This document shows, piece by piece, positions 6,224-50,965 of a stretch of DNA of 64,000 bases. The stretch covers positions 1 to 64,000 of the forward strand of contig CANNKG010000006.1 in assembly GCA_947505105.1 (NCBI GenBank), written 5' to 3'. The position numbers and the translations under genes were made by a program. The DNA comes from Methylococcaceae bacterium. GTDB lineage: Bacteria; Pseudomonadota; Gammaproteobacteria; Methylococcales; Methylomonadaceae. The notes under the pieces are model-generated. The model worked only from the letters and a program-made list of their open reading frames with translations, made no database searches and was not told the DNA's origin. The first letter of the stretch is position 1; every line of letters begins with the position of its first letter.

Positions 6224-7918
6224 ATGCATCCAAACAAATCACTTTCAATCTGGACAGTCGGATTATTTAGCATAGCGATTTCCTCAAGGGCTTGGGGCTT
6301 CTCTGAAGATATTTGCTACTACTATAAAAATCCAACGGATAAAACCGGACCGATTAATCCCGCGCCTTTTAATTGTTGGGACTTGCAGTGTCGGGATGGC
6401 GCGACTAGTCAAGTACCCAATAGCGCCTCGTCCTGCGTAGTCACTGGATTAGCACGTTATGCCGATGCAACCTTCGGTGGCTTTCATGCCAGAAATAGTA
6501 TCCATTTTGATATAACTTGGTTATCAGCCAGATTACAGGGCATGAAGGAGCAGGACGCGTTGAAACTTGCCATATATACTGAAGCTACCGATTTAGGCAA
6601 CTATCAGCATTATGATTATCAAGGACTTCCAATGACAAGTGCAGTGAGCGACAATATAAATGGGGTTGTCCGTACTAATATGGCGACCAATGGCTTTTGG
6701 TTACACTTTATACCTTGGAAAAAAACCACAGGGTCTACGCAACATAATTCGGAACTCACTTATACCCCCAATTCTGGCAACGCATCCCCTTACCCTGCTC
6801 AAGAAGTGCCTTTAGCACATTTAAGAGCTTGGGCATTCGGATTACAAAAAGATCTGTGTGAATTCGGAATGACCGATACCCAAGAAGCGATCGGTAACTG
6901 TTTGACATCGAATAGCTTATATTATGATGTGCCGATACTCGCTGGGCCTAATAATGTCGTCGACATTCGGGTTCAACCCAAAGAACAACCCATGCTTCTG
7001 GGATGGCAGCGCATCAATCAAAATACCGGCAATTGCGATACTCGTGATTGTTATAACCGTGATTATGCCCGTGTGAAAGCTGGGACGATTGAAGCATTGG
7101 GCATTTACTTACATGCGATGGCAGATCGCATTTCTCATCACTACTGTTCTGATCAAAGCTATATAAGCACCACCTGGACTGGCGAAGGGGCGCCAAAAAC
7201 CGCCGCCGATTACTATCTGTTTTATCCGGATATTTGTGGAACGGCAGCACACGTCTCGTTACATTATCCAGAAACTGGCCAAACCGCCTTGCCGGATCGC
7301 TCTCGTGATGCCGTCAATTATGCTTATCAGGAAATTGCTGCCTGGATGGCAACAAAATCCTATGTCTCTGATTCAATCACACCGGCACGAGGTTTTCCCG
7401 CTCCTACTTCAATAGATGCTGTAAATTTTTTAATGGATCGCGCTTTAACCAGTGGTACGGCCTCAGAGCGATTACATAATCTATGCAACATTGCCCTTCA
7501 AGGCTATCAACTTAAATGGCATGATCAAAACCCTGAGTGCACGTACAGTTCTGAACTGGATTTACCACAAGCTGGCAGTATTGCGGGCGTCAGCGTGGGT
7601 AAGATAAGTAATTACGGTTTGACGGGTATACTGCGTCCGGCTAGGGATCATCAGAATGCGAGTGCTGATTTGATGATTGTTGCAAGGACCAAAGATAATC
7701 AATGGTTTTCATTAACACCCGCCGGATTTTCGCCTAGCTTGAACGGTGTATTAGCACCTTACCAAAACGGTAAATTAGATTTAAAAACGATTACCATCTT
7801 AAATGGTAGTGTCGATTTGACTCTATATAAAGATGCTGAAATTTACATGGGTTACGGAAGCTCCCTCTCTGATATTATTACTAATCAACGGTACGCAAAG
7901 ATAGGTGTTATTCGATAA
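6224..7918 (+). CDS. Large secreted protein with HxxxDxxxHH motif, unknown function
   Basis: A 564-residue protein with a signal peptide (about 1-25, ending SRAWG) and an excellent ATAGGAGG ribosome site. I do not recognise a named family. The mature part is rich in aromatic residues and cysteine (at least a dozen Cys), as in a disulfide-stabilised extracytoplasmic enzyme. A helical segment at about residues 295-306, YLHAMADRISHHYC, contains HxxxDxxxHH. Together with earlier FGGFHARNSIHFDITW and AIYTEATDLGNYQHYD it recalls the metal-ligand layout of the zinc-dependent phospholipase C/P1-nuclease fold; this is inference only. The last 110 residues look like a separate beta-rich domain. It appears monocistronic, followed by a transposase relic. 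Confidence 0.8.
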   Translation: MHPNKSLSIWTVGLFSIAISSRAWGFSEDICYYYKNPTDKTGPINPAPFNCWDLQCRDGATSQVPNSASSCVVTGLARYADATFGGFHARNSIHFDITWLSARLQGMKEQDALKLAIYTEATDLGNYQHYDYQGLPMTSAVSDNINGVVRTNMATNGFWLHFIPWKKTTGSTQHNSELTYTPNSGNASPYPAQEVPLAHLRAWAFGLQKDLCEFGMTDTQEAIGNCLTSNSLYYDVPILAGPNNVVDIRVQPKEQPMLLGWQRINQNTGNCDTRDCYNRDYARVKAGTIEALGIYLHAMADRISHHYCSDQSYISTTWTGEGAPKTAADYYLFYPDICGTAAHVSLHYPETGQTALPDRSRDAVNYAYQEIAAWMATKSYVSDSITPARGFPAPTSIDAVNFLMDRALTSGTASERLHNLCNIALQGYQLKWHDQNPECTYSSELDLPQAGSIAGVSVGKISNYGLTGILRPARDHQNASADLMIVARTKDNQWFSLTPAGFSPSLNGVLAPYQNGKLDLKTITILNGSVDLTLYKDAEIYMGYGSSLSDIITNQRYAKIGVIR

Positions 7919-7943
7919 TTCCTTTTTACTGAATTGGAAAAAT

Positions 7944-8180
7944 TTAGCTGATCATTGTTGAACTTCGCCAAAGCCGCTCAGTAAAGATATTGTCCAAGGC
8001 GCGACCGCGCCCATCCATGCTGATTTTAATAGCTTTGCGTTTCAGTCCCTGAATCCAATCATCACTGGTAAATTGAGCTCCCTAGTCGGTATTAAAAAAT
8101 TCAGGGTCAGGGGAGTCATACTGATTCAGTGACTTATGCAGAACCCATCAGCACCGGATAAACTGACTGTTGTCCAGAAC
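7944..8180 (-). pseudogene. IS3-family transposase (OrfB) relic
   Basis: Reading the minus strand from 8180 to 7944 gives fragments of a DDE integrase-core transposase: VLDN, a tryptophan segment WVLHKSL, FFNTD followed by an in-frame TAG at 8082-8084 where family members have Gln, then GAQFTSDDWIQGLK, ISMDGRGRALDNIF and TERLWRS. This is the IS3 family (IS51/IS407-like) OrfB signature. A second stop lies at 8148-8150 and about 15 residues are missing before FFNTD. The N-terminal half, OrfA and the terminal repeats are not visible, so this is a decayed remnant. Confidence 0.8.
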
Positions 8181-8210
8181 ATAAAATGCTGCATTGATCA
8201 TATTTGACAA

Positions 8211-8250
8211 GCAAAAAACCCTTGCAACGGTTTTCTCGTAGCAAGGGTTT
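8211..8250 (-). terminator. Rho-independent terminator of the Lcl/PKD gene
   Basis: Minus strand: 10-bp stem AAACCCTTGC/GCAAGGGTTT with a 15-nt loop followed by TTT, about 35 bases after the stop codon at 8285. Confidence 0.8.
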
Positions 8251-8284
8251 GTTATTAAACGAAATTGACAATCGCGATTAAAAA

Positions 8285-10441
8285 CTAACTACCGCCTTTA
8301 AGACTATAAGTAAAGTTTACTGGATCATAAACCATTATTACATTCTTAAACACTCGGTCCATAGCATAGACACGTTCAATTTCGATATTAGCGCCCACGA
8401 ATTTAGCAATATTGGCTTGACCACCTGTGATTACATATCTTGATTTAACAGTAAACTGCCAGTAATCATTACGCTCCAACTCAAAGTGGTAGAGTTTTCC
8501 ATCTGTACTCAAGATAGAATCAATGACTAATAAGCGCGTACTATCATCATAATTCGCAGTCGGATTATTGAGATAATCAAATACCTGAGCGCCACTGACC
8601 AAGCGGATTGTATTTGCTTTCGTTTTCGAAACAAAGCCACTACTACCATCGGAAAAATCTACAAACCAGACGTTATCCGAACGACCTTTTTCCAATTTCT
8701 TAGAATAGAACGTAGTCGAAGAATAAGGGCCAGAGGTGGTATTTGGAAAGAAGCTAACATCAACCGTAGGTGAAGTATATGTCCCCTCACAACCCGTCGC
8801 TACTTTGTTCCAAAGCTGCGGCAATCCGGAAGAGCACATGATCAAACTTCTAAGCTCATCACTTCCAGGAGCGTGCCAATCAGTCACACCACACGCATTC
8901 TGAGCGTTAAAGCTTTGAGTAAGCCCATCCACAGTGGTATTCAGCGTCTGCTCGATTGTCACGACTTGCCAAATCAAATTAGTACGACTGTCGTAAGTAC
9001 AAACCCAATCATTCGCCGTGAAATTTTTATCAGCGATTGTAGCACTATCTGGCAGAACATCACCCGTCATCGAAATTTTGAAAAAGTCTTTAGTCGAAGC
9101 CTTCTCAACAACGGGCACGATCTTTGGTCCAATGGTAATACTTTGTACTGTAGAATTCGTAGCACCTTTATCGTCAGTAACAGTCAGCGTTACTCTATAA
9201 GTTGCTGCATCTTTGTAGGTAAATGTTGCTTTACTTTCTCCGGATGACTGATTGATATTATCGCTCCATGAATAGCTTTTAATTTGACCGTCACTATCAC
9301 TAGACCCTGTAGCATCAAGCGACACAATGACACTGCCCGTGGCCGATAAAATCCCATCCTGCGGTGAAAGCTTATAAGTAATATTAGCGACTGGTTTAGC
9401 ATTTGCGATAACGCTGTCTGAAACAACTACCGACTGTGACTTACTATTAGTGTTATTAGTTTTACCGGAGTTATCGGTCACCTTCAAAGTTACAGTATAC
9501 GTCCCTGCTTTCGCGACTTTAATACTAGCTGGCTTAATCCCAGTTGCTGTCAATGTTGTTTGACCAGTTAACGCAATCGTCCATTCATAACTATTGATCG
9601 AACCATCACTATCTGTCGAAGTGCTACCATCAAGATCAATCGATAACCCATTAGCAGTTGCGATAAAAGCAGCAACAGGAGGTTTATTTGTAGGTGTGGT
9701 GATACTTGTAGAACCAAGATTAACGCACGGTCCGCCAGGAATAAATGAAAAGCATGCGGATGGATCAACTGTAGTTGGCGTTGTCGTAGTGGCACCATTT
9801 GAGGTTGTGGGAGTAGTACTATTACTTGTTCCAATCGCACTCCCAGTGCTTGTATCCAAACCACTCACCGGTAGTACTAACCGAATCTTATTAAGATCAA
9901 ATTGAGTCGTAAAATCTGAGTCTCCTGTATAAAAATTAACGAAATAGGCAGTATTTGCGATATTTGGATAATTGTCAGATGTCCAATAGGATGAACTTTT
10001 TGCGGTATTAGGAAAGGCATTTGGACTGATTTGAGGATCGACGCCATCATTCTGATAGCTAATACACCGAAAATTTTCCACCCAATTAGTACTCTTACCG
10101 GCGGGACAATAAATAAGCGATTCTAATTCAGTCTTGGTTGGCATTCGCCAAGAAGAATTACCACACAAATTGGATCGATTAACCGTTGAGACAAATCCGG
10201 AAGATTCTGACCACTTATAAGAGGTATCCTGACTGCGGGTACCGCTAGTCGTTTTAATTTCCCACAACAAACCTGCTCTGCTATCCCACGTACACCCCCA
10301 ATCATTTGAGCCGGTTCCTAAAGTTGCACTCGCAGGCAACACCTTGCCGCTATTGGAAACCTTATAGTAGTCGGCGATAGCCATGTTGCTCAAGCTGAAA
10401 ACTATACAGCTCAACAAAATTGAAATACTGATTCTAAACAT
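8285..10441 (-). CDS. Secreted Lcl/DUF1566-PKD-PKD-Lcl/DUF1566 protein
   Basis: A 718-residue exported protein with a signal peptide at 1-23. Residues about 24-195 form a first Lcl/DUF1566-like domain (GLLWE, WRMPTKTELESLIYCP, RLVLPVSG). A Ser/Thr/Pro-rich linker follows, then two PKD domains at about 250-340 and 345-440, each with DSDGSI or DSDGQI and an AGTYTVTLKVTDNSG-type strand. A second Lcl/DUF1566 unit covers about 450-620 (NLIWQ, WHAPGSDELRSLIMCS, IRLVSG). The C-terminal 95 residues are unassigned. The two Lcl units are clearly paralogous and both start YYKVSNSGKVLPASAT/FFKISMTGDVLPDSAT. Probably surface or extracellular binding; no catalytic motif is seen. The ribosome site is GAGGA. 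Monocistronic. Confidence 0.85.
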   Translation of the reverse strand: MFRISISILLSCIVFSLSNMAIADYYKVSNSGKVLPASATLGTGSNDWGCTWDSRAGLLWEIKTTSGTRSQDTSYKWSESSGFVSTVNRSNLCGNSSWRMPTKTELESLIYCPAGKSTNWVENFRCISYQNDGVDPQISPNAFPNTAKSSSYWTSDNYPNIANTAYFVNFYTGDSDFTTQFDLNKIRLVLPVSGLDTSTGSAIGTSNSTTPTTSNGATTTTPTTVDPSACFSFIPGGPCVNLGSTSITTPTNKPPVAAFIATANGLSIDLDGSTSTDSDGSINSYEWTIALTGQTTLTATGIKPASIKVAKAGTYTVTLKVTDNSGKTNNTNSKSQSVVVSDSVIANAKPVANITYKLSPQDGILSATGSVIVSLDATGSSDSDGQIKSYSWSDNINQSSGESKATFTYKDAATYRVTLTVTDDKGATNSTVQSITIGPKIVPVVEKASTKDFFKISMTGDVLPDSATIADKNFTANDWVCTYDSRTNLIWQVVTIEQTLNTTVDGLTQSFNAQNACGVTDWHAPGSDELRSLIMCSSGLPQLWNKVATGCEGTYTSPTVDVSFFPNTTSGPYSSTTFYSKKLEKGRSDNVWFVDFSDGSSGFVSKTKANTIRLVSGAQVFDYLNNPTANYDDSTRLLVIDSILSTDGKLYHFELERNDYWQFTVKSRYVITGGQANIAKFVGANIEIERVYAMDRVFKNVIMVYDPVNFTYSLKGGS

Positions 10442-44235: not shown

Positions 44236-45136
44236 AACTTCCTCACAATTTATTCCACAAAAACTAACCCAAAGTGTAGTTGGCGCGACTTAAATAACCA
44301 CTAAATTTTAAGCACCGTGTAAAAAATTTGCCGTCCACTTAAAGCTTTACATCACTATCAAAACCTAATGTACCATCCCTAAAAATAATATGCATGATTC
44401 CTGATCCACCTATGGAACATGGCGGCATCAATTTTATACTTAGAAAGCGCCTAACGAATACCATACCGACATAGGTAGTGAACAGCATGGGAGTCATCAT
44501 CATTTATCCTAAAAAAAGCAGTTGAGGCCTTAAAATTCCGTTCGCCCTGAGTTTATCGAAGGGTTGAACGGGATTTTAAGGTCTCACCGTCTGGGTGAAC
44601 ACATAGAAAACCGTCCATGCTTCGACTGGGCTCAGTACGAACGGTTTTCTATACGTTGAACGGCGCTTTTTAGGTTTATGTATGACACACATCCCTTCGC
44701 CCAATGATTGGGTACATTAGTTTGTGTATATTTATTGCTAAGTCGGACAGTTTCTTTACATCAAGGCACACTGATTCTTCAGCACCAAAGATCTATCTCA
44801 TTTTGAGCCTTCAGCTAATGCCAATCGCACCAATATCTTGCACACTATGACATTCTTCACCCAAATGCATCTAATCGGTAGTCACTAATAAAGACTGAAC
44901 AATTTTATCCTGCCTTGTACAGGCTGGACTCAAGGTTAATTAATAATTTAAGAATTTTTCGCCCAGCATTGAAAAAATTAAAATTTATATATTTCAATAT
45001 ATTATGACTTTTTTCAATATTCTTTTGTACATTTACCTGCACACTACTGAACTTTATTTTGAATTGTTGATCATACAGCTAAGGTATTGAGTCACAAATA
45101 TGTATAATTTTTGTCTATGTATTGTACATATTTTGT
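44236..45136. other. Long intergenic region containing repeat copy 2
   Basis: About 900 bases between the hppA start and the sigma-factor promoter. Apart from the 158-bp double-hairpin repeat at 44519-44676 the sequence is AT-rich and shows no gene, RNA or further palindrome that I can support. Confidence 0.5.
44519..44676. repeat. Dispersed double-hairpin repeat, copy 2
   Basis: Same length and orientation as 1-158, with a few substitutions. The first hairpin is kept; the second has two mismatches in its outer stem (positions corresponding to 83 and 135 of copy 1 changed G to A on both arms). The flanks differ from copy 1, which fixes the right boundary at TTTAGGTT and the left boundary at or before CAGTTGAG. 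Confidence 0.9.
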
Positions 45137-45165
45137 TTGACATTAAGTTCACATCAGAGTATCGT
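45137..45165 (+). promoter_or_regulatory. Sigma-70 promoter of the sigma-factor gene
   Basis: Perfect TTGACA (45137-45142), 17-base spacer, TATCGT (45160-45165, four of six consensus bases). It lies about 100 bases before the ATG at 45262. Confidence 0.55.
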
Positions 45166-45261: not shown

Positions 45262-46755
45262 ATGCTTTACACCAATCATTTGCTCGAACAACAAAAGTTT
45301 TATTCCGATTTGGCTAGCAATGCCGACTCAGGCATAATCAAAGGCCAAGAATTTTTTATTGTTGAAAAAGAATCGGACGACCCCATCACGATTGAACCGA
45401 TAGCATTGGACTCAACTATTGAGTGCGAACTTCCAGCAAAATCAATTCCAGAAGAAACAAATTACAGCATCGCTAAAGAACTTGACCTGCATCGGAGGGA
45501 ACTAGTTGAAACACTCGCCCAATTGCCTTTGACAGCGCTTTGCCTGCTACATAAACATGAACAAAAACCTAACAATTCTGACGATGATGCCAGTGCACTA
45601 ACTGAACAAGATAGTGAACAAGAAAGCCAAATAACTACGCTTGCGCATTATTTCCAACATGCCCAACAACTCGCCAGCACGGAAGGTTTGCAAAGCCACA
45701 ATTACTTGAGCGCCAAGCATGATATTATCAATTATTTGAAAGATTTCAGTTATACCGCCGAGCAACTTAAAAAAATATCCGCATTAACTCTTTACGCTTA
45801 CTATCAAAACCAACCGTTACTGAACGACGACTCTAAATTACTCGCGACCAAACAACGGATGGCATTCAACAAAATCTTGAGTTTGTCTAATTTGAATGCG
45901 ACCAAATTGCAACGAGAGTTAGCTCAACTGAGCTTTGAGTTTTGCAACAATACCACGCTAAGTGATTTTTTACTGCCCGGAGATGCCCTAACCGAAGAAT
46001 TGATCGAAAAGATTCTCATCACCGAGCAATCCTGGTTAAAAACCCGTCAAAAATTAGCAGAAGTGAATTCGCGGCTGGTATTTTTTATTGCCAATCAATA
46101 CAAGGGCTCTTTCTTAGAGTTCGGCGACTTGGTCCAAGAAGGCCAGAGCGGCTTACTAAAAGCCGTCGACCGCTTTGATCATGAACGCGGTTTTCAATTC
46201 TCAACCTATGCGGCTTACTGGATTAGACAAGCTATTTCACGGGCACTGACGCGCAATGAACGCGTTGTACGGTTACCATTTGGCAAAATGGCCAACATTC
46301 ACAAAGTCAACCGCGCCAAACACCAATTATTTGCTGAGAAAGGTTCTGAAGCCACCACCAAGGAACTTGCAGCATTCACCAAACTTTCCGAACAAGATGT
46401 CGCCAATATTTTAGTCATCTCACAAACGGCTACTTCATTGGATGCACCAGTCGATGAAGATGAAAATTCGGCGACCAAAGGCGATTATTTAGAACAGCAG
46501 GTCTTTAGTCATCCGCTGAATAAAATTTCGGACCAAGAATTGCATCAAACTATTAACGAAGCGATCAAAATCCTGAGTCCTAAAGAAGCTCATGTTATTA
46601 ATTGTCGTTTCGGAATTACCACTAAACATGAGATGACCCTTGAAGAAATTGGTCATGAATTGCATCTGACCCGCGAACGAGTTCGTCAAATTCAAATCGC
46701 GGCCATGCAAAAAATGAAACGACATTTTGGCTCGCAACTTAGTATTTTTTTATAA
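45262..46755 (+). CDS. Divergent sigma-70 family sigma factor with reduced RpoD-like N-terminus
   Basis: A 497-residue sigma factor. Region 2 starts at about 266: EVNSRLVFFIANQY, FLEFGDLVQEGQSGLLKAVDRFD, then FSTYAAYWIRQAISRAL. Region 3 follows, and region 4 carries MTLEEIGHELHLTRERVRQIQ at about 456-476. Core residues are close to RpoD and RpoS. The first 265 residues have no RpoD region 1.1 and no recognisable DPVRMYL of region 1.2, but IAKELDLHRRELVETLAQLP recalls the start of the RpoD non-conserved region. It may be an RpoD paralogue. It has its own promoter, and about 180 bases separate it from hflK. Confidence 0.88.
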   Translation: MLYTNHLLEQQKFYSDLASNADSGIIKGQEFFIVEKESDDPITIEPIALDSTIECELPAKSIPEETNYSIAKELDLHRRELVETLAQLPLTALCLLHKHEQKPNNSDDDASALTEQDSEQESQITTLAHYFQHAQQLASTEGLQSHNYLSAKHDIINYLKDFSYTAEQLKKISALTLYAYYQNQPLLNDDSKLLATKQRMAFNKILSLSNLNATKLQRELAQLSFEFCNNTTLSDFLLPGDALTEELIEKILITEQSWLKTRQKLAEVNSRLVFFIANQYKGSFLEFGDLVQEGQSGLLKAVDRFDHERGFQFSTYAAYWIRQAISRALTRNERVVRLPFGKMANIHKVNRAKHQLFAEKGSEATTKELAAFTKLSEQDVANILVISQTATSLDAPVDEDENSATKGDYLEQQVFSHPLNKISDQELHQTINEAIKILSPKEAHVINCRFGITTKHEMTLEEIGHELHLTRERVRQIQIAAMQKMKRHFGSQLSIFL

Positions 46756-46937
46756 CGTTCACAATTATTCTAGTTTTGAAATAAATTTGTTAAGGACGGC
46801 AAATCACTTTAAACCCGGTCCAAGTACACTCCATATTCTTAAGTGTATTTAAGCCATTAGTAAACGTAGCCATCTGGCCTTCAGGACTGAATCGGCCAAA
46901 CATTACTCAGCTACGTTTTTTGAATCTGGAGGTTATG

Positions 46938-48077
46938 ATGTACGGGAAAAAACACGACAAGCATCTGCAAGATGTGGATGATAATTCAGCCAACAATAGC
47001 GCCTTGGACACTTTTCTTCGAAATGGCTCAGGTAAAATTAATTGGTTAATCGATCAAATCAGCACCAATTTTAACGCTAAAACCGTAGCCAAATATTCAG
47101 CAGCAACCCTGGTGCTCGCCTGGAGTGTCAGTGGGATATATATTGTTGACGAGGGTAATCAAGGTGTAGTGACCCGCTTTGGTGCGTATCAAGAAACCTC
47201 GGCACCGGGACCACACTGGCATTTACCGTATCCAATCGAAGCGGTATCGGTGGTCAACGTTGCCAATCAGCGCTACATTGAAATCGGCTACAGTTCTGCG
47301 AGTGGTCGCGGGAGCGGTTCAATCTTAAACGAATCACTGATGTTGACCGAAGATGAAAATATTGTCGACGTAAGACTGGCCGTTCAATATCAAATCAAAA
47401 ACGCGCGTGACTATATCTTCAATGTAGAAGATCAAGTCGCCACCCTGAAACAGGCAACGCAGAGCGCCGAACGGGCGGTGATCGGCAAAAACGGTATGGA
47501 TTTTGTACTGACTGAAGGGCGTAGCACCATTGTGGCGCAAATTCAGGAACAGATTCAAAAAATCATGGATGGTTATAAAGCCGGCGTTGTCATCACTAGC
47601 GTAAACCTCCAGGACGCCCAGCCGCCCGAACAAGTGCAAGCGGCTTTTGAAGAAGCAAAACAACGCTTAATCAACGAAGCTGAAGCCTATGCGAATGAAA
47701 TCGTTCCGAATGCCCGAGGCAGCGCTGCTCGCAAAATCCAGGAAGCGGAAGCCTACAAAGAAAATGTAATTGCGACCGCAAGTGGCGATATCAGTCGCTT
47801 CAACCAGTTACATCAAGAATACAAGAAATCACCGCAAGTAACGCGTAAACGCTTACTCCTAGAAACAATGGAATCAGTGTTGAATGAAAGCGATGTAGTG
47901 ATGCTGGACAGCGGCTCTAACAACAATATGTTGTATTTACCGATTGATAAGATCCGTGACAAAAAACCTGTCGACTTGGAGAGTAATTCGGCGAGCCATC
48001 AACCAAGCCAGAGCGAAAGCTCAAAATCAGAAGCTGTTGATGCTAAATTTAAACGCATAAATCGGGGGAGAAACTAA
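46938..48077 (+). CDS. hflK: FtsH modulator HflK
   Basis: A 379-residue SPFH/prohibitin-family protein with one N-terminal membrane helix at about 50-66 and a large periplasmic part. Signature segments are GIYIVDEGNQGVVTRFGAYQET, NIVDVRLAVQYQIKNARDYIFNV and SVNLQDAQPPEQVQAAFEEAK. With HflC it forms the ring that surrounds and modulates FtsH. The ATG at 46938 is five bases after GGAGG; the ATG just before it (46935) is too close. One-base overlap with hflC. Confidence 0.95.
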   Translation: MYGKKHDKHLQDVDDNSANNSALDTFLRNGSGKINWLIDQISTNFNAKTVAKYSAATLVLAWSVSGIYIVDEGNQGVVTRFGAYQETSAPGPHWHLPYPIEAVSVVNVANQRYIEIGYSSASGRGSGSILNESLMLTEDENIVDVRLAVQYQIKNARDYIFNVEDQVATLKQATQSAERAVIGKNGMDFVLTEGRSTIVAQIQEQIQKIMDGYKAGVVITSVNLQDAQPPEQVQAAFEEAKQRLINEAEAYANEIVPNARGSAARKIQEAEAYKENVIATASGDISRFNQLHQEYKKSPQVTRKRLLLETMESVLNESDVVMLDSGSNNNMLYLPIDKIRDKKPVDLESNSASHQPSQSESSKSEAVDAKFKRINRGRN

Positions 48078-48934
48078 TGTTAGCGCAAACCAAATACACA
48101 CTACCATTGGGCGCCCTGTTGATCGCAACTTACTTTTCGGTGTTCACGGTACAAGAATCGGAAAAGGCCATCAAATTCAAACTTGGCGAAATAATTCGTT
48201 CCGATTTTGAACCTGGCCTGCATTTTCAAGTCCCATTCATTAATAATGTTAAAACCTTTAACAATAAAATTTTAACGTTAGATTCTAAGCCGGAACGTTT
48301 TCTTACTTCGGAAAAGAAAAACGTGATCGTCGATTCCTATGTTAAATGGCAAATTGGTGAGGTAAACCGGTATTACACATCGGTCGGTGGTGACAAATTT
48401 CAAGCCAATCTGCGTTTGGAACAAATTATCAAAGACAGTATGCGCAGCGAATTTAGCAAACGGACCATTAAGGAGTTGATTACCGAAGACCGCATGGAAA
48501 TGGGGGACGCGTTGATCAAGAACACCAGTCGCTTGGCTGATGAACTCGGCATAAAAATAGTCGATATCCGTATCAAACGAATCGACTTACCTAAAGAGGT
48601 CAGCAGTTCGGTGTTCAGACGCATGGATGCCGAACGCGAGCGCGTTGCGCGTGAATTTCGTTCGCAAGGTGCAGAAGCTGCCGAAAGAATTCGTGCGGAT
48701 GCCGACAAACAGCATTCCGTCATTCTTTCAGAAGCCTACCGTGAATCTGAAACCTTGCGCGGTGAAGGCGATGCGAAAGCGGCCGAAATTTATGCCGCTG
48801 GTTACGATAAGGATCCTGAATTTTTTGCCCTGTACCGGAGTTTAAGTTCTTACAAAAAAGCCTTTAAAGACAAAAATGACGTCATTGTGCTCAACCCAAA
48901 TTCTGAATATTTCAGATATTTTGGTCGCCAATAA
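48077..48934 (+). CDS. hflC: FtsH modulator HflC
   Basis: A 285-residue SPFH protein, partner of HflK. One N-terminal membrane helix at about 5-25, then VQESEKAIKFKLGEIIRSDFEPGLHFQVPF, YVKWQIGEVNRYY and RVAREFRSQGAEAAERIRADADK with the C-terminal helix and FFALYRSLSSYKKAF. Length is slightly below E. coli HflC (334), lacking part of the central insertion. The ATG overlaps the hflK stop codon. It lies 99 bases before ftsH. Confidence 0.95.
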   Translation: MLAQTKYTLPLGALLIATYFSVFTVQESEKAIKFKLGEIIRSDFEPGLHFQVPFINNVKTFNNKILTLDSKPERFLTSEKKNVIVDSYVKWQIGEVNRYYTSVGGDKFQANLRLEQIIKDSMRSEFSKRTIKELITEDRMEMGDALIKNTSRLADELGIKIVDIRIKRIDLPKEVSSSVFRRMDAERERVAREFRSQGAEAAERIRADADKQHSVILSEAYRESETLRGEGDAKAAEIYAAGYDKDPEFFALYRSLSSYKKAFKDKNDVIVLNPNSEYFRYFGRQ

Positions 48935-49033: not shown

Positions 49034-50965
49034 ATGAAAAAATATGTATACAACGCCTTGTTGTTTATCGTGGTATTCTCGGGCTTGTTTCTCATCTTCA
49101 ATCGATTGGAAACAACCCCTGAACTTTACACATCCCTACCCTACTCGGAATTTATCGAGAAGGTGAAGAACGGTCAGGTGGACCGTGTCGAAATCAATGG
49201 CGCTAACATCGTCATCAAAACGACCGACGGTCAACGCTACGAAACCTACAATCCGAACGATCCTCATTTAATTGATGATTTGTTGACGGCGAATGTCGAA
49301 ATCAAAACAATCGCGCCACCAAAAACTTCGTTTCTGATGGAAATCTTTATTTCCTGGTTCCCGATGTTGCTGTTGATTGCAGTATGGATCATCTACATGC
49401 GCAGATCGCAGCAGGGTGGCTTGGGCGGCAATAACTTCGGTAAGAGCAAAGCTAAAATGCTGACCGAAGACAAAATGACCGTAAAGTTCAATGATGTTGC
49501 CGGTTGCGAAGAAGCGAAAGAGGAAGTTAAAGAAGTGGTTGACTTTCTTAGAGCGCCGCAAAAATTCACCAAACTGGGCGGTAAAATGCCGCGCGGAATT
49601 CTGATGGTCGGCCCCCCTGGTACTGGTAAAACCTTGCTGGCTAGAGCAATTGCAGGCGAAGCAGGCGTTAAGTTCTTCAGCATCTCAGGTTCGGACTTCG
49701 TTGAAATGTTTGTTGGTGTGGGTGCCTCACGGGTTCGCGACATGTTTGTGCAAGCTAAAGAACATGCGCCATGTATCATCTTCATCGACGAAATCGACGC
49801 GGTCGGCCGTCAACGTGGCGGCGCCGGATTAGGCGGCGGCAATGACGAACGGGAACAAACTTTGAACCAATTGCTGGTTGAAATGGATGGTTTTGATGGC
49901 GATCAGGGCGTGATTATTATTGCTGCAACCAACCGTGCCGACGTGCTCGATAAAGCCTTGTTAAGACCGGGCCGTTTCGACCGTCAAGTCACCGTAGGCT
50001 TGCCGGATGTCCGTGGTCGTGAACAAATCTTGAATGTCCACATCAAGAAAGTACCGGCGTCTGCCGATGTCGAATTGAAATATATCGCTCGCGGCACTCC
50101 TGGGTTTTCAGGCGCAGATCTCGCTAACGTGGTTAATGAAGCTGCCCTCTTTGCGGCACGCGGCGACCAATCCGAAGTCACCATGCGTGACCTTGAGAAA
50201 GCAAAAGACAAGATTTTGATGGGTGCTGAAAAACGTACCATGATTATGAGCGAAGACGACAAACTGTTGACTGCTTATCATGAAGCTGGTCACTGTATAG
50301 TCGGTCAAAAATCCCAAGATCACGATCCGGTCTATAAAGTCAGCATCATGCCGCGTGGAAGAGCTTTGGGGGTCACTATGTTCCTGCCTGAGCAAGATCA
50401 ATACAGCGCAAGTAAACGCAAATTGGAAAGCCAAATTGCCGGCTTGTTTGGCGGTCGGATCGCCGAAGTCATGATTTTCGGTGAAGACCGCGTAACCACT
50501 GGCGCCTCTAACGACATCGAACGCGCCACTGAATTGGCTCGTAACATGGTGACTCGCTGGGGTCTTTCCAACAAATTGGGGCCATTAGTATATGGTGAAG
50601 AAGGCGGTCAAGCATTTATGGGTCATCCAGGGACTCAAGGCGCAAAAGTGTCCAGCAATGTTGCCCACCTAATTGATGAAGAAATGCGTTCCGTCATCGA
50701 CCGCAACTATGGCAGAGCACAGCAAATTCTTGAAGAAAACATTGATGTGCTGCATAAAATGGCCGATGCCCTGATGAAATGGGAAACCATCGACCGTAAT
50801 CAAATTGATGACTTAATGGCTGGTAGAGAACCACAACCGCCTTCAGATATTATAGAAGTTAAGGTGGAACATGACGATCAACCACCAAAATCCGATCATA
50901 AAGGCAAGGATAAATTGAGTAAGGATGTAACCCCTCCTAGCAATAAACCTGCCGGACAGCTTTGA
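49034..50965 (+). CDS. ftsH: ATP-dependent zinc metalloprotease FtsH
   Basis: A 643-residue membrane AAA protease degrading misassembled membrane proteins and selected regulators. TM1 is at about 6-23, periplasmic loop to about 98, TM2 at about 101-122. Walker A GPPGTGKT is at 193-200, Walker [10 protein letters not shown], the second region of homology [20 protein letters not shown] and zinc site HEAGH at 416-420. The C-terminal tail is hydrophilic. Adjacent to hflK-hflC, unlike in E. coli where ftsH and hflKC lie apart; this may be a second ftsH copy. A strong terminator follows. Confidence 0.96.

Follow-up and report, generated by a model that had tools for sequence, protein, structure and literature searches.

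What kind of sigma factor is encoded directly in front of hflK, hflC and ftsH genes in a Methylococcaceae genome, where does its long N-terminal part come from, and what connects it with the protease? These questions are raised by a gene of the window, the whole stretch of 64,000 bp that was analysed. An earlier note, made from the letters of this DNA, had read the gene as a duplicate of rpoD that turned into an alternative factor. We examined this reading by domain and profile searches, structure comparison, phylogeny and gene neighbourhoods among 251 sampled Methylococcales genomes. The features of the locus are compiled in Table 1.

Table 1. Coordinates of the sigma locus within the window and subdivision of the sigma factor (NCR, non-conserved region)
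Feature	Position	Strand	Basis or remark
CarH-type operator (candidate)	45111..45153	+	Pattern match, 0 mismatches
Predicted sigma promoter, TTGACA - 17 bp - TATCGT	45137..45165	+	Top promoter-like match in the region
RpoD-derived alternative sigma factor, 497 aa	45262..46755	+	Pfam, profile and structure comparison
Sigma factor, variable part	residues 1-60
Sigma factor, region 1.2 tail and NCR start	residues 64-101
Sigma factor, shortened NCR	residues 102-250
Sigma factor, region 2	residues 262-334
Sigma factor, region 3	residues 345-404
Sigma factor, region 4	residues 434-486
Sigma factor, C-terminus			Hydrophobic, ...LSIFL
hflK2, second HflK copy	46935..48077	+	Mechanical ORF from TTG 46920; ATG 46935 after GGAGG
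hflC2, second HflC copy	48077..48934	+	83% identity with its linked counterpart in G002, 62% with the HflC encoded on contig C19
ftsH2, second FtsH copy	49034..50965	+	88% identity with its linked counterpart in G002, 69% with the housekeeping FtsH encoded on contig C76

The sigma factor, its N-terminal region and its family

The gene begins with an ATG preceded by an AGGA-like ribosome-binding site and encodes a sigma-70 factor of 497 amino acids. Regions 2, 3 and 4 all passed their Pfam cut-offs (61.3, 53.4 and 54.1 bits, respectively), by which the protein belongs to the sigma-70 family. The earlier note was therefore right in calling these regions well kept, and also in missing region 1.1, of which Pfam found none. 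Seven proteins of the genome (G000, 5.1 Mb) contain a region 2 domain. Judged by their sequences, they are RpoD (contig C32), RpoS (C41), RpoH (C3), FliA (C4), the factor studied here (C6) and two ECF-like proteins (C36 and C53).

That the protein is just an ordinary RpoD, RpoS or RpoH, or else MzaA, the sigma factor of the MZA anti-phage system, might be supposed from its best NCBIfam matches, which were RpoD (244 bits) and MzaA (240 bits). Both scores are, however, far under the curated cut-offs of 555 and 800 bits, and the models of RpoS (215 bits, cut-off 379) and RpoH (123 bits, cut-off 323) were not satisfied either. Since ordinary RpoDs reach about 465 bits on the MzaA model, the MzaA match reflects a generic similarity to RpoD, and this candidate was discarded. 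Neither region 1.1 nor a complete region 1.2 is present, as would be typical of RpoD, and the protein does not cluster with the RpoDs of the order; by model score and tree position it is neither RpoS nor RpoH. The genome moreover has its separate RpoD, RpoS and RpoH. In view of these data an ordinary factor or MzaA is extremely improbable, and the refutation that the note had set for its own reading, an ordinary RpoS or RpoH, did not come true.

The note had further stated that a clear region 1.2 is lacking. This applies to the front half, which was unrecognizable, while the tail of the region can still be identified (IAKELDLHRRELVETLAQLP, compared with IAKRIESGLQQVVKSLARSN in RpoD). The Pfam model Sigma70_r1_2 was found in one of 15 family members, and Sigma70_ner matched residues 104-173 with 18 bits, below its cut-off of 29.7. 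A clearer result was obtained by profile-profile comparison of 16 N-termini of the type found in the window (clade A, see below) with those of 23 Methylococcales RpoDs. The alignment remained collinear along 239 columns and scored 37.2 (E 5.8e-7), against at most 9.1 for 60 column-shuffled RpoD profiles. In this alignment residues 67-101 correspond to the tail of region 1.2 and the beginning of the NCR, and residues 114-183 to helices of the NCR. Thus, the suspected resemblance to the NCR is real. Relatives of two other families (clade C, families f2 and f5) have retained the front of region 1.2 and hence the whole region (E 2.5e-12). For the N-terminus of clade B, about 190 residues ahead of region 2, no similarity to the RpoD profile was detected.

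The AlphaFold model of the protein contains confident helices from residue 64 onwards, while residues 9-61 mostly have a pLDDT below 50. Residues 61-332 align at 4.0-4.5 Å with sigma70 fragments of Escherichia coli or Caulobacter (5yix_A, 4.0 Å over 232 residues; 1sig, 4.5 Å over 218), and these fragments span region 1.2, the NCR and region 2. The structure prediction proposed in the note as a check consequently gave a match to RpoD through all three parts, which is not fully independent of the profile result because RpoDs are included in the alignment underlying the model. The N-terminus of the sigma factor is not a foreign domain but that of an RpoD in which region 1.1 is missing, region 1.2 is reduced to its tail and the NCR is shortened. 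What is left of the NCR points to an RpoD-like ancestor.

Members of the family occur in 129 of the 251 Methylococcales genomes, and a class-wide contig sample yielded none outside the order at E <= 1e-90. In a tree calculated on regions 2-4 with RpoH as outgroup, they form three groups, A (including the protein of the window), B and C, all located outside the well-supported group of RpoD and RpoS; the family is thus distinct from RpoD, RpoS and RpoH alike. Its exact depth is unsure, as the branches are long and long-branch joins are to be reckoned with. The best named match, a protein of a Methylococcaceae metagenome-assembled genome (L056), fell within the family, next to that of G014. Another candidate, from a Rokuibacteriota metagenome-assembled genome (L085, 32% identity over residues 70-497), grouped with RpoDs and was rejected. 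The duplicate of RpoD postulated in the note is therefore supported by the RpoD-type remnants at the N-terminus, but it is not a recent copy: the family is old, fast-evolving and spread over the order. Two genomes of family f4 (G052 and G068) harbor a second full-length RpoD-like protein of about 600 aa (L215 and L216; 58-59% identity to RpoD), which groups with RpoD and represents an independent duplicate in another family of the order.

The family also differs from RpoD in residues contacting the promoter. W433 (sigma70 numbering), a tryptophan in all RpoD and RpoS proteins examined, is replaced by a tyrosine in each of the 16 members of clade A, and clade B has Y, F or P at this position; across the family Y, F, P or C occur. 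T440 is mostly replaced by S. The -35 contacts R584, E585, R588 and Q589 were unchanged in every family member examined.

The linked hflK-hflC-ftsH genes

The three genes directly 3' of the sigma gene encode HflK, HflC and FtsH, but they are not the housekeeping set. The housekeeping FtsH is encoded on contig C76 and another HflK-HflC pair on C19. HflK2 and the linked HflK from a genome of the same genus share 66% identity. FtsH2 formed a separate clade in the FtsH tree, and the clades within it mirrored those of the sigma factors. The adjacency reported in the note is consequently true, yet it relates to a second set and not to the housekeeping one.

The arrangement is by no means restricted to the window. 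Among 75 distinct sigma loci with downstream sequence, which had been picked by the sigma gene independently of FtsH, the next gene on the same strand was hflK, hflC or ftsH in 73, the exceptions being L051 and L204. Pairwise distances of the sigma factors and of the linked FtsH2 proteins correlated with r = 0.95 over 48 loci, a value reached in none of 2000 permutations, part of which has to be ascribed to the shared ancestry of the genomes. Within clade A, hflKC is usually absent between sigma and ftsH. From gene order and spacing, we infer that sigma, ftsH2 and, where present, hflK2 and hflC2 are co-transcribed. Between the sigma gene and hflK2 a stem followed by a T run is visible; as a terminator or attenuator it received no support, as it folded no better than shuffled sequences (z -1.1).

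Several loci deviate in detail. At L041:6749-7555 (G006), hflK and hflC are reduced to short remnants of 77 and 60 aa, respectively, between sigma and ftsH2, so that in this genome hflKC is decaying while sigma and ftsH2 are retained. At L184 (G139; compare L180, G211), the sigma gene is broken by TGA, TAG and TAA codons within the match and the ftsH2 behind it is intact. The loci L195, L196, L201 and L204 carry second sigma copies or copies devoid of a CarH-like neighbor (see below), and some genomes (e.g. G150, G158 and G204) possess two sigma-hflKC-ftsH units, one of them without the CarH-like gene and operator. Genes of the FtsH2 type without a sigma neighbor were found at L206 (G015) and L207 (G018), both in genomes without the sigma factor, and further FtsH2-like copies (L209, L210) in genomes possessing it. 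In G017, the gap of 256 bp between sigma and ftsH2 (L042:5014-3677, downstream) contains a tandem repeat of about 50 bp (GGTCGCATCGGTTCC...CCATCCGTGGCAGTC). Small membrane proteins of approximately 140-175 aa, alike by eye, are encoded behind ftsH2 in clade B and also behind the second CarH-type operator (L188:10439-10855, L277, L278, L272, L273); a Pfam scan of the L188 protein gave no match.

The candidate upstream operator, the predicted promoter and the CarH-like regulator

The earlier reading missed what is most informative here, a conserved candidate operator of the CarH type with a predicted promoter upstream of the sigma gene (45111-45165), together with an associated CarH-like regulator. 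In published CarH operators, direct repeats of 11 bp (nAnnTnnACAn) stand in tandem and extend over a -35 box of the sequence TTGACA (PMC8156234). In the window, TTGT occurs with a period of 11 bp at 45111, 45122 and 45133 (TGTCTA at 45112), and TnnACA half-sites start at 45123 (TGTACA), 45137 (TTGACA, the -35 box) and 45148 (TTCACA). The site shares with the published operator the period, the TnnACA core and the overlap with TTGACA, whereas position 2 of the repeats does not keep its A. The predicted promoter agrees with the consensus in ten of twelve positions; its location relative to the operator is conserved among relatives, while promoter-like sites as a whole were no more numerous in this region than chance would give.

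A pattern search of 12 genomes allowing up to two mismatches gave 12 hits in seven genomes, and the reversed pattern gave none. Within the 5.1 Mb of the window's genome, the operator of the window was one of two sites at this threshold. The same arrangement was seen in relatives of clades A and B; in the intergenic region of clade B, promoters of the type TTGACA-N17-TAACTT are embedded in TnnACA repeats. We also built a position weight matrix (PWM) from clade B only, leaving out the -35 box save its first T. With this matrix, most clade A sigma genes proved to have a site upstream. Among 53 upstream regions from outside clade B, there were 31 in which TGAC of the -35 box, which is not part of the scored columns, followed the best site at a fixed place, against an expectation of about 0.2. 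The site of the window taken alone was marginal by this matrix, as two of 100 shuffled sequences reached its score. In the genus g15, the clade A sigma gene has no operator and the clade B sigma gene of the same genome keeps it. An Rfam search upstream of the sigma gene disclosed no RNA element. Elsewhere in the window, positions 22-143 and 44540-44660 are near-identical, REP-like inverted-repeat copies (GTTCGCCCTGAGTTTATCGAAGGG ... CTTCGACTGGGCTCAGYACGAACGG).

In nearly all clade B loci a divergent gene lies 36-137 bp upstream of sigma, the product of which contains MerR HTH and B12-binding Pfam domains. In G001, of the same genus as the window, such a CarH-like gene is located directly upstream of sigma on the same strand, while in the window's genome it is not adjacent but resides on another contig (C120). 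The Wx9EH motif and the HEFG/HELG histidine of the B12 site were kept in all 27 aligned copies, including that on C120. Thus, the features of class I CarH/LitR proteins (MerR HTH, both B12 domains, Wx9EH and the axial histidine) are present, the domains having been scanned on the L188 copy, which has all of them, and on the divergent L051 copy, in which the Rossmann B12-binding Pfam domain was not detected.

Across the 251 genomes, sigma factor and CarH-like gene occur together in 109, sigma alone in 20, the CarH-like gene alone in seven and neither in 115. The association (109 of 129 sigma genomes) is pronounced, with a Fisher p of about 1e-40 that is uncorrected for relatedness. Some of the 20 sigma genomes without a detected CarH-like gene are incomplete assemblies. 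Most of the regulator-less sigma genomes with sequenced upstream regions have no operator either (G011, G017, G019, G022, G116, G135 and G214); in G198 it is at best weak, and one site has been kept in G148. At L238 of G027 (6920-8650), a SiaB/SiaC/diguanylate-cyclase-like set (186, 124 and 263 aa) adjoins the CarH-like gene and sigma.

Further operator hits suggest additional targets, whose names were assigned by reading the sequences. They precede an operon for a small membrane protein and a lipocalin in G016, G006 and G183, and in G043 the gene of the membrane protein, the only part of this operon seen there. In G006, G183 and G043 they adjoin a divergent gene of the YfcH/TIGR01777 type, and on contig C42 of the window's genome a hit lies 300 bp before a YfcH-type gene. 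A photolyase gene is located beside the YfcH/membrane-protein/lipocalin operon of G006. In G027, sigma heads an operon, with no ftsH adjoining, whose further genes carry Pfam domains of amine oxidase, DUF1365 and cyclopropane synthase; in Pseudomonas, the LitR cluster contains a similar set with its genes for an FAD-oxidoreductase and UfaM (PMC9758184).

A possible light-stress switch and its relation to known systems

We conclude that the locus is not an artefact and probably belongs to a CarH-type regulon whose output is an RpoD-derived sigma factor with a dedicated protease. Its operator and regulator point to light or B12 as the signal, and by the family of the regulator this signal would be light perceived through adenosylcobalamin, or B12 itself. 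With a probability of roughly 60%, we favor an RpoD-derived alternative sigma factor that is repressed by the CarH-like protein, induced by light and equipped with its own HflKC-FtsH; as far as genes can tell, the system is probably a light-stress transcription program carrying its own protease. An RpoD-like ancestor would have given rise to a Methylococcales-specific alternative factor that no longer possesses region 1.1 or the first part of region 1.2. The housekeeping sigma factor would read the TTGACA-type promoter and yield a sigma-(hflK2-hflC2-)ftsH2 transcript. In the dark, the MerR-B12 protein encoded on C120 would occupy the 11-bp repeats over the -35 box and keep the operon off, and light, through photolysis of adenosylcobalamin, or a shortage of adenosylcobalamin would release it. 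The new sigma factor might then direct transcription towards photostress genes, and HflKC-FtsH2, synthesized along with it, would handle damaged membrane proteins, remove the sigma factor when the stress ends, or both. Against repression by CarH count the distant location of the CarH-like gene and the marginal PWM site in the window, the 20 sigma genomes without the regulator together with the seven regulator genomes without sigma, and the clade A sigma gene of g15 that lacks an operator.

The role of FtsH2 may be conceived in different ways. In E. coli, FtsH degrades RpoH. A similar feedback is a serious though not the leading possibility: FtsH2 (with HflKC2) would chiefly degrade the sigma factor, the protease would be titrated under membrane stress, and CarH would contribute a secondary input. 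This feedback would account for the near-invariant linkage and the co-divergence of sigma and FtsH2, and for a linkage that survives decay or loss of hflKC (G006, L041). Moreover, clade A proteins end exactly at the hydrophobic ...FL, where RpoD continues with acidic residues. Clade B proteins, however, have an acidic or polar end after FL and still keep ftsH2, and the exposed tail may merely be a shortened RpoD C-terminus; since the FL end is constant in clade A and not in clade B, a C-terminal FtsH degron is only a suggestion. We hold it to be about equally conceivable that FtsH2-HflKC2 is output only, serving membrane quality control against photodamaged proteins without acting on sigma. 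The shared operon and operator fit this, as does the operon of G027, where other photostress-type genes take the place of ftsH, as expected if ftsH2 were one effector among others; by itself, such a role leaves the linkage in 73 of 75 loci unexplained. Somewhat less probable is a general light response of Methylococcales in the form of a self-limiting photostress switch, in which a B12 photoreceptor derepresses sigma and HflKC-FtsH both repairs light-damaged membranes and destroys sigma after the light has gone.

The nature of the signal can be questioned as well. Instead of sensing light directly by adenosylcobalamin, the CarH-like protein could be a switch for B12 or redox status or act via a partner photoreceptor, like the class II LitR of Pseudomonas, which works with a LOV protein and whose B12 domain is reduced to the four-helix half (PMC9758184). 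The undetected Rossmann domain of the L051 copy would agree with this, but the B12-site residues kept in all aligned copies, as in class I CarH, and the two B12-binding domains of the L188 copy make it unlikely. The light-induced, CarH-repressed sigma factor with its own protease is retained as the best reading, in which the sigma regulon and the role of FtsH2 are presumed.

If it is true, a sigma program switched by light or B12 exists in approximately every second Methylococcales genome of the sample. Methane oxidation in lakes is reportedly inhibited by light, a debated effect that may influence methane fluxes during the day (PMC7474682). With such a switch, the effect of light on methane oxidation would become directly testable by genetics. 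For the study of sigma factors it would provide a descendant of RpoD in which a -10 contact is altered (W433 to Y in clade A), region 1.2 is decaying and the tie to a dedicated membrane protease has persisted across a whole bacterial family. In the literature covered, which excluded most subscription journals, neither an earlier description of the sigma-HflKC-FtsH2 system nor a light-sensing circuit of methanotrophs was found.

Compared with the group 1 sigma70 factor RpoD of proteobacteria, the family has regions 2-4, a remnant of region 1.2, a shortened NCR and the -35 contact residues in common. It differs by the missing region 1.1, in clade A also by the missing front of region 1.2 and in clade B by an unrecognizable N-terminus, by the substitutions at W433 and T440, and by being a second gene beside the genome's own rpoD. 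In the RpoH circuit of E. coli an alternative sigma factor is likewise combined with HflKC-FtsH, which is a functional resemblance; in E. coli, however, the genes lie apart and the housekeeping copy serves as the protease, whereas here an additional set is co-encoded with sigma. A second FtsH beside the core enzyme is also known from Pseudomonas aeruginosa clone C, where FtsH2 is a horizontally acquired xenolog for which the abstract names no accompanying sigma factor, while the FtsH2 described here is linked to hflKC and sigma (PMC10850787). Also closely related are CarH/LitR regulons with an ECF sigma factor as output, such as the CarQ system of Myxococcus xanthus and LitR-LitS of Streptomyces (PMC8156234, PMC9758184). 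Common to both types are a regulator of the MerR-B12 kind, here a predicted repressor, repeats of 11 bp that cover a TTGACA promoter, the involvement of a sigma factor, and photolyase and lipid-modification genes nearby. In the Methylococcales, however, the sigma factor is derived from RpoD and possesses regions 2, 3 and 4, and a second HflKC-FtsH takes the place of the anti-sigma factor or the carotenoid genes.
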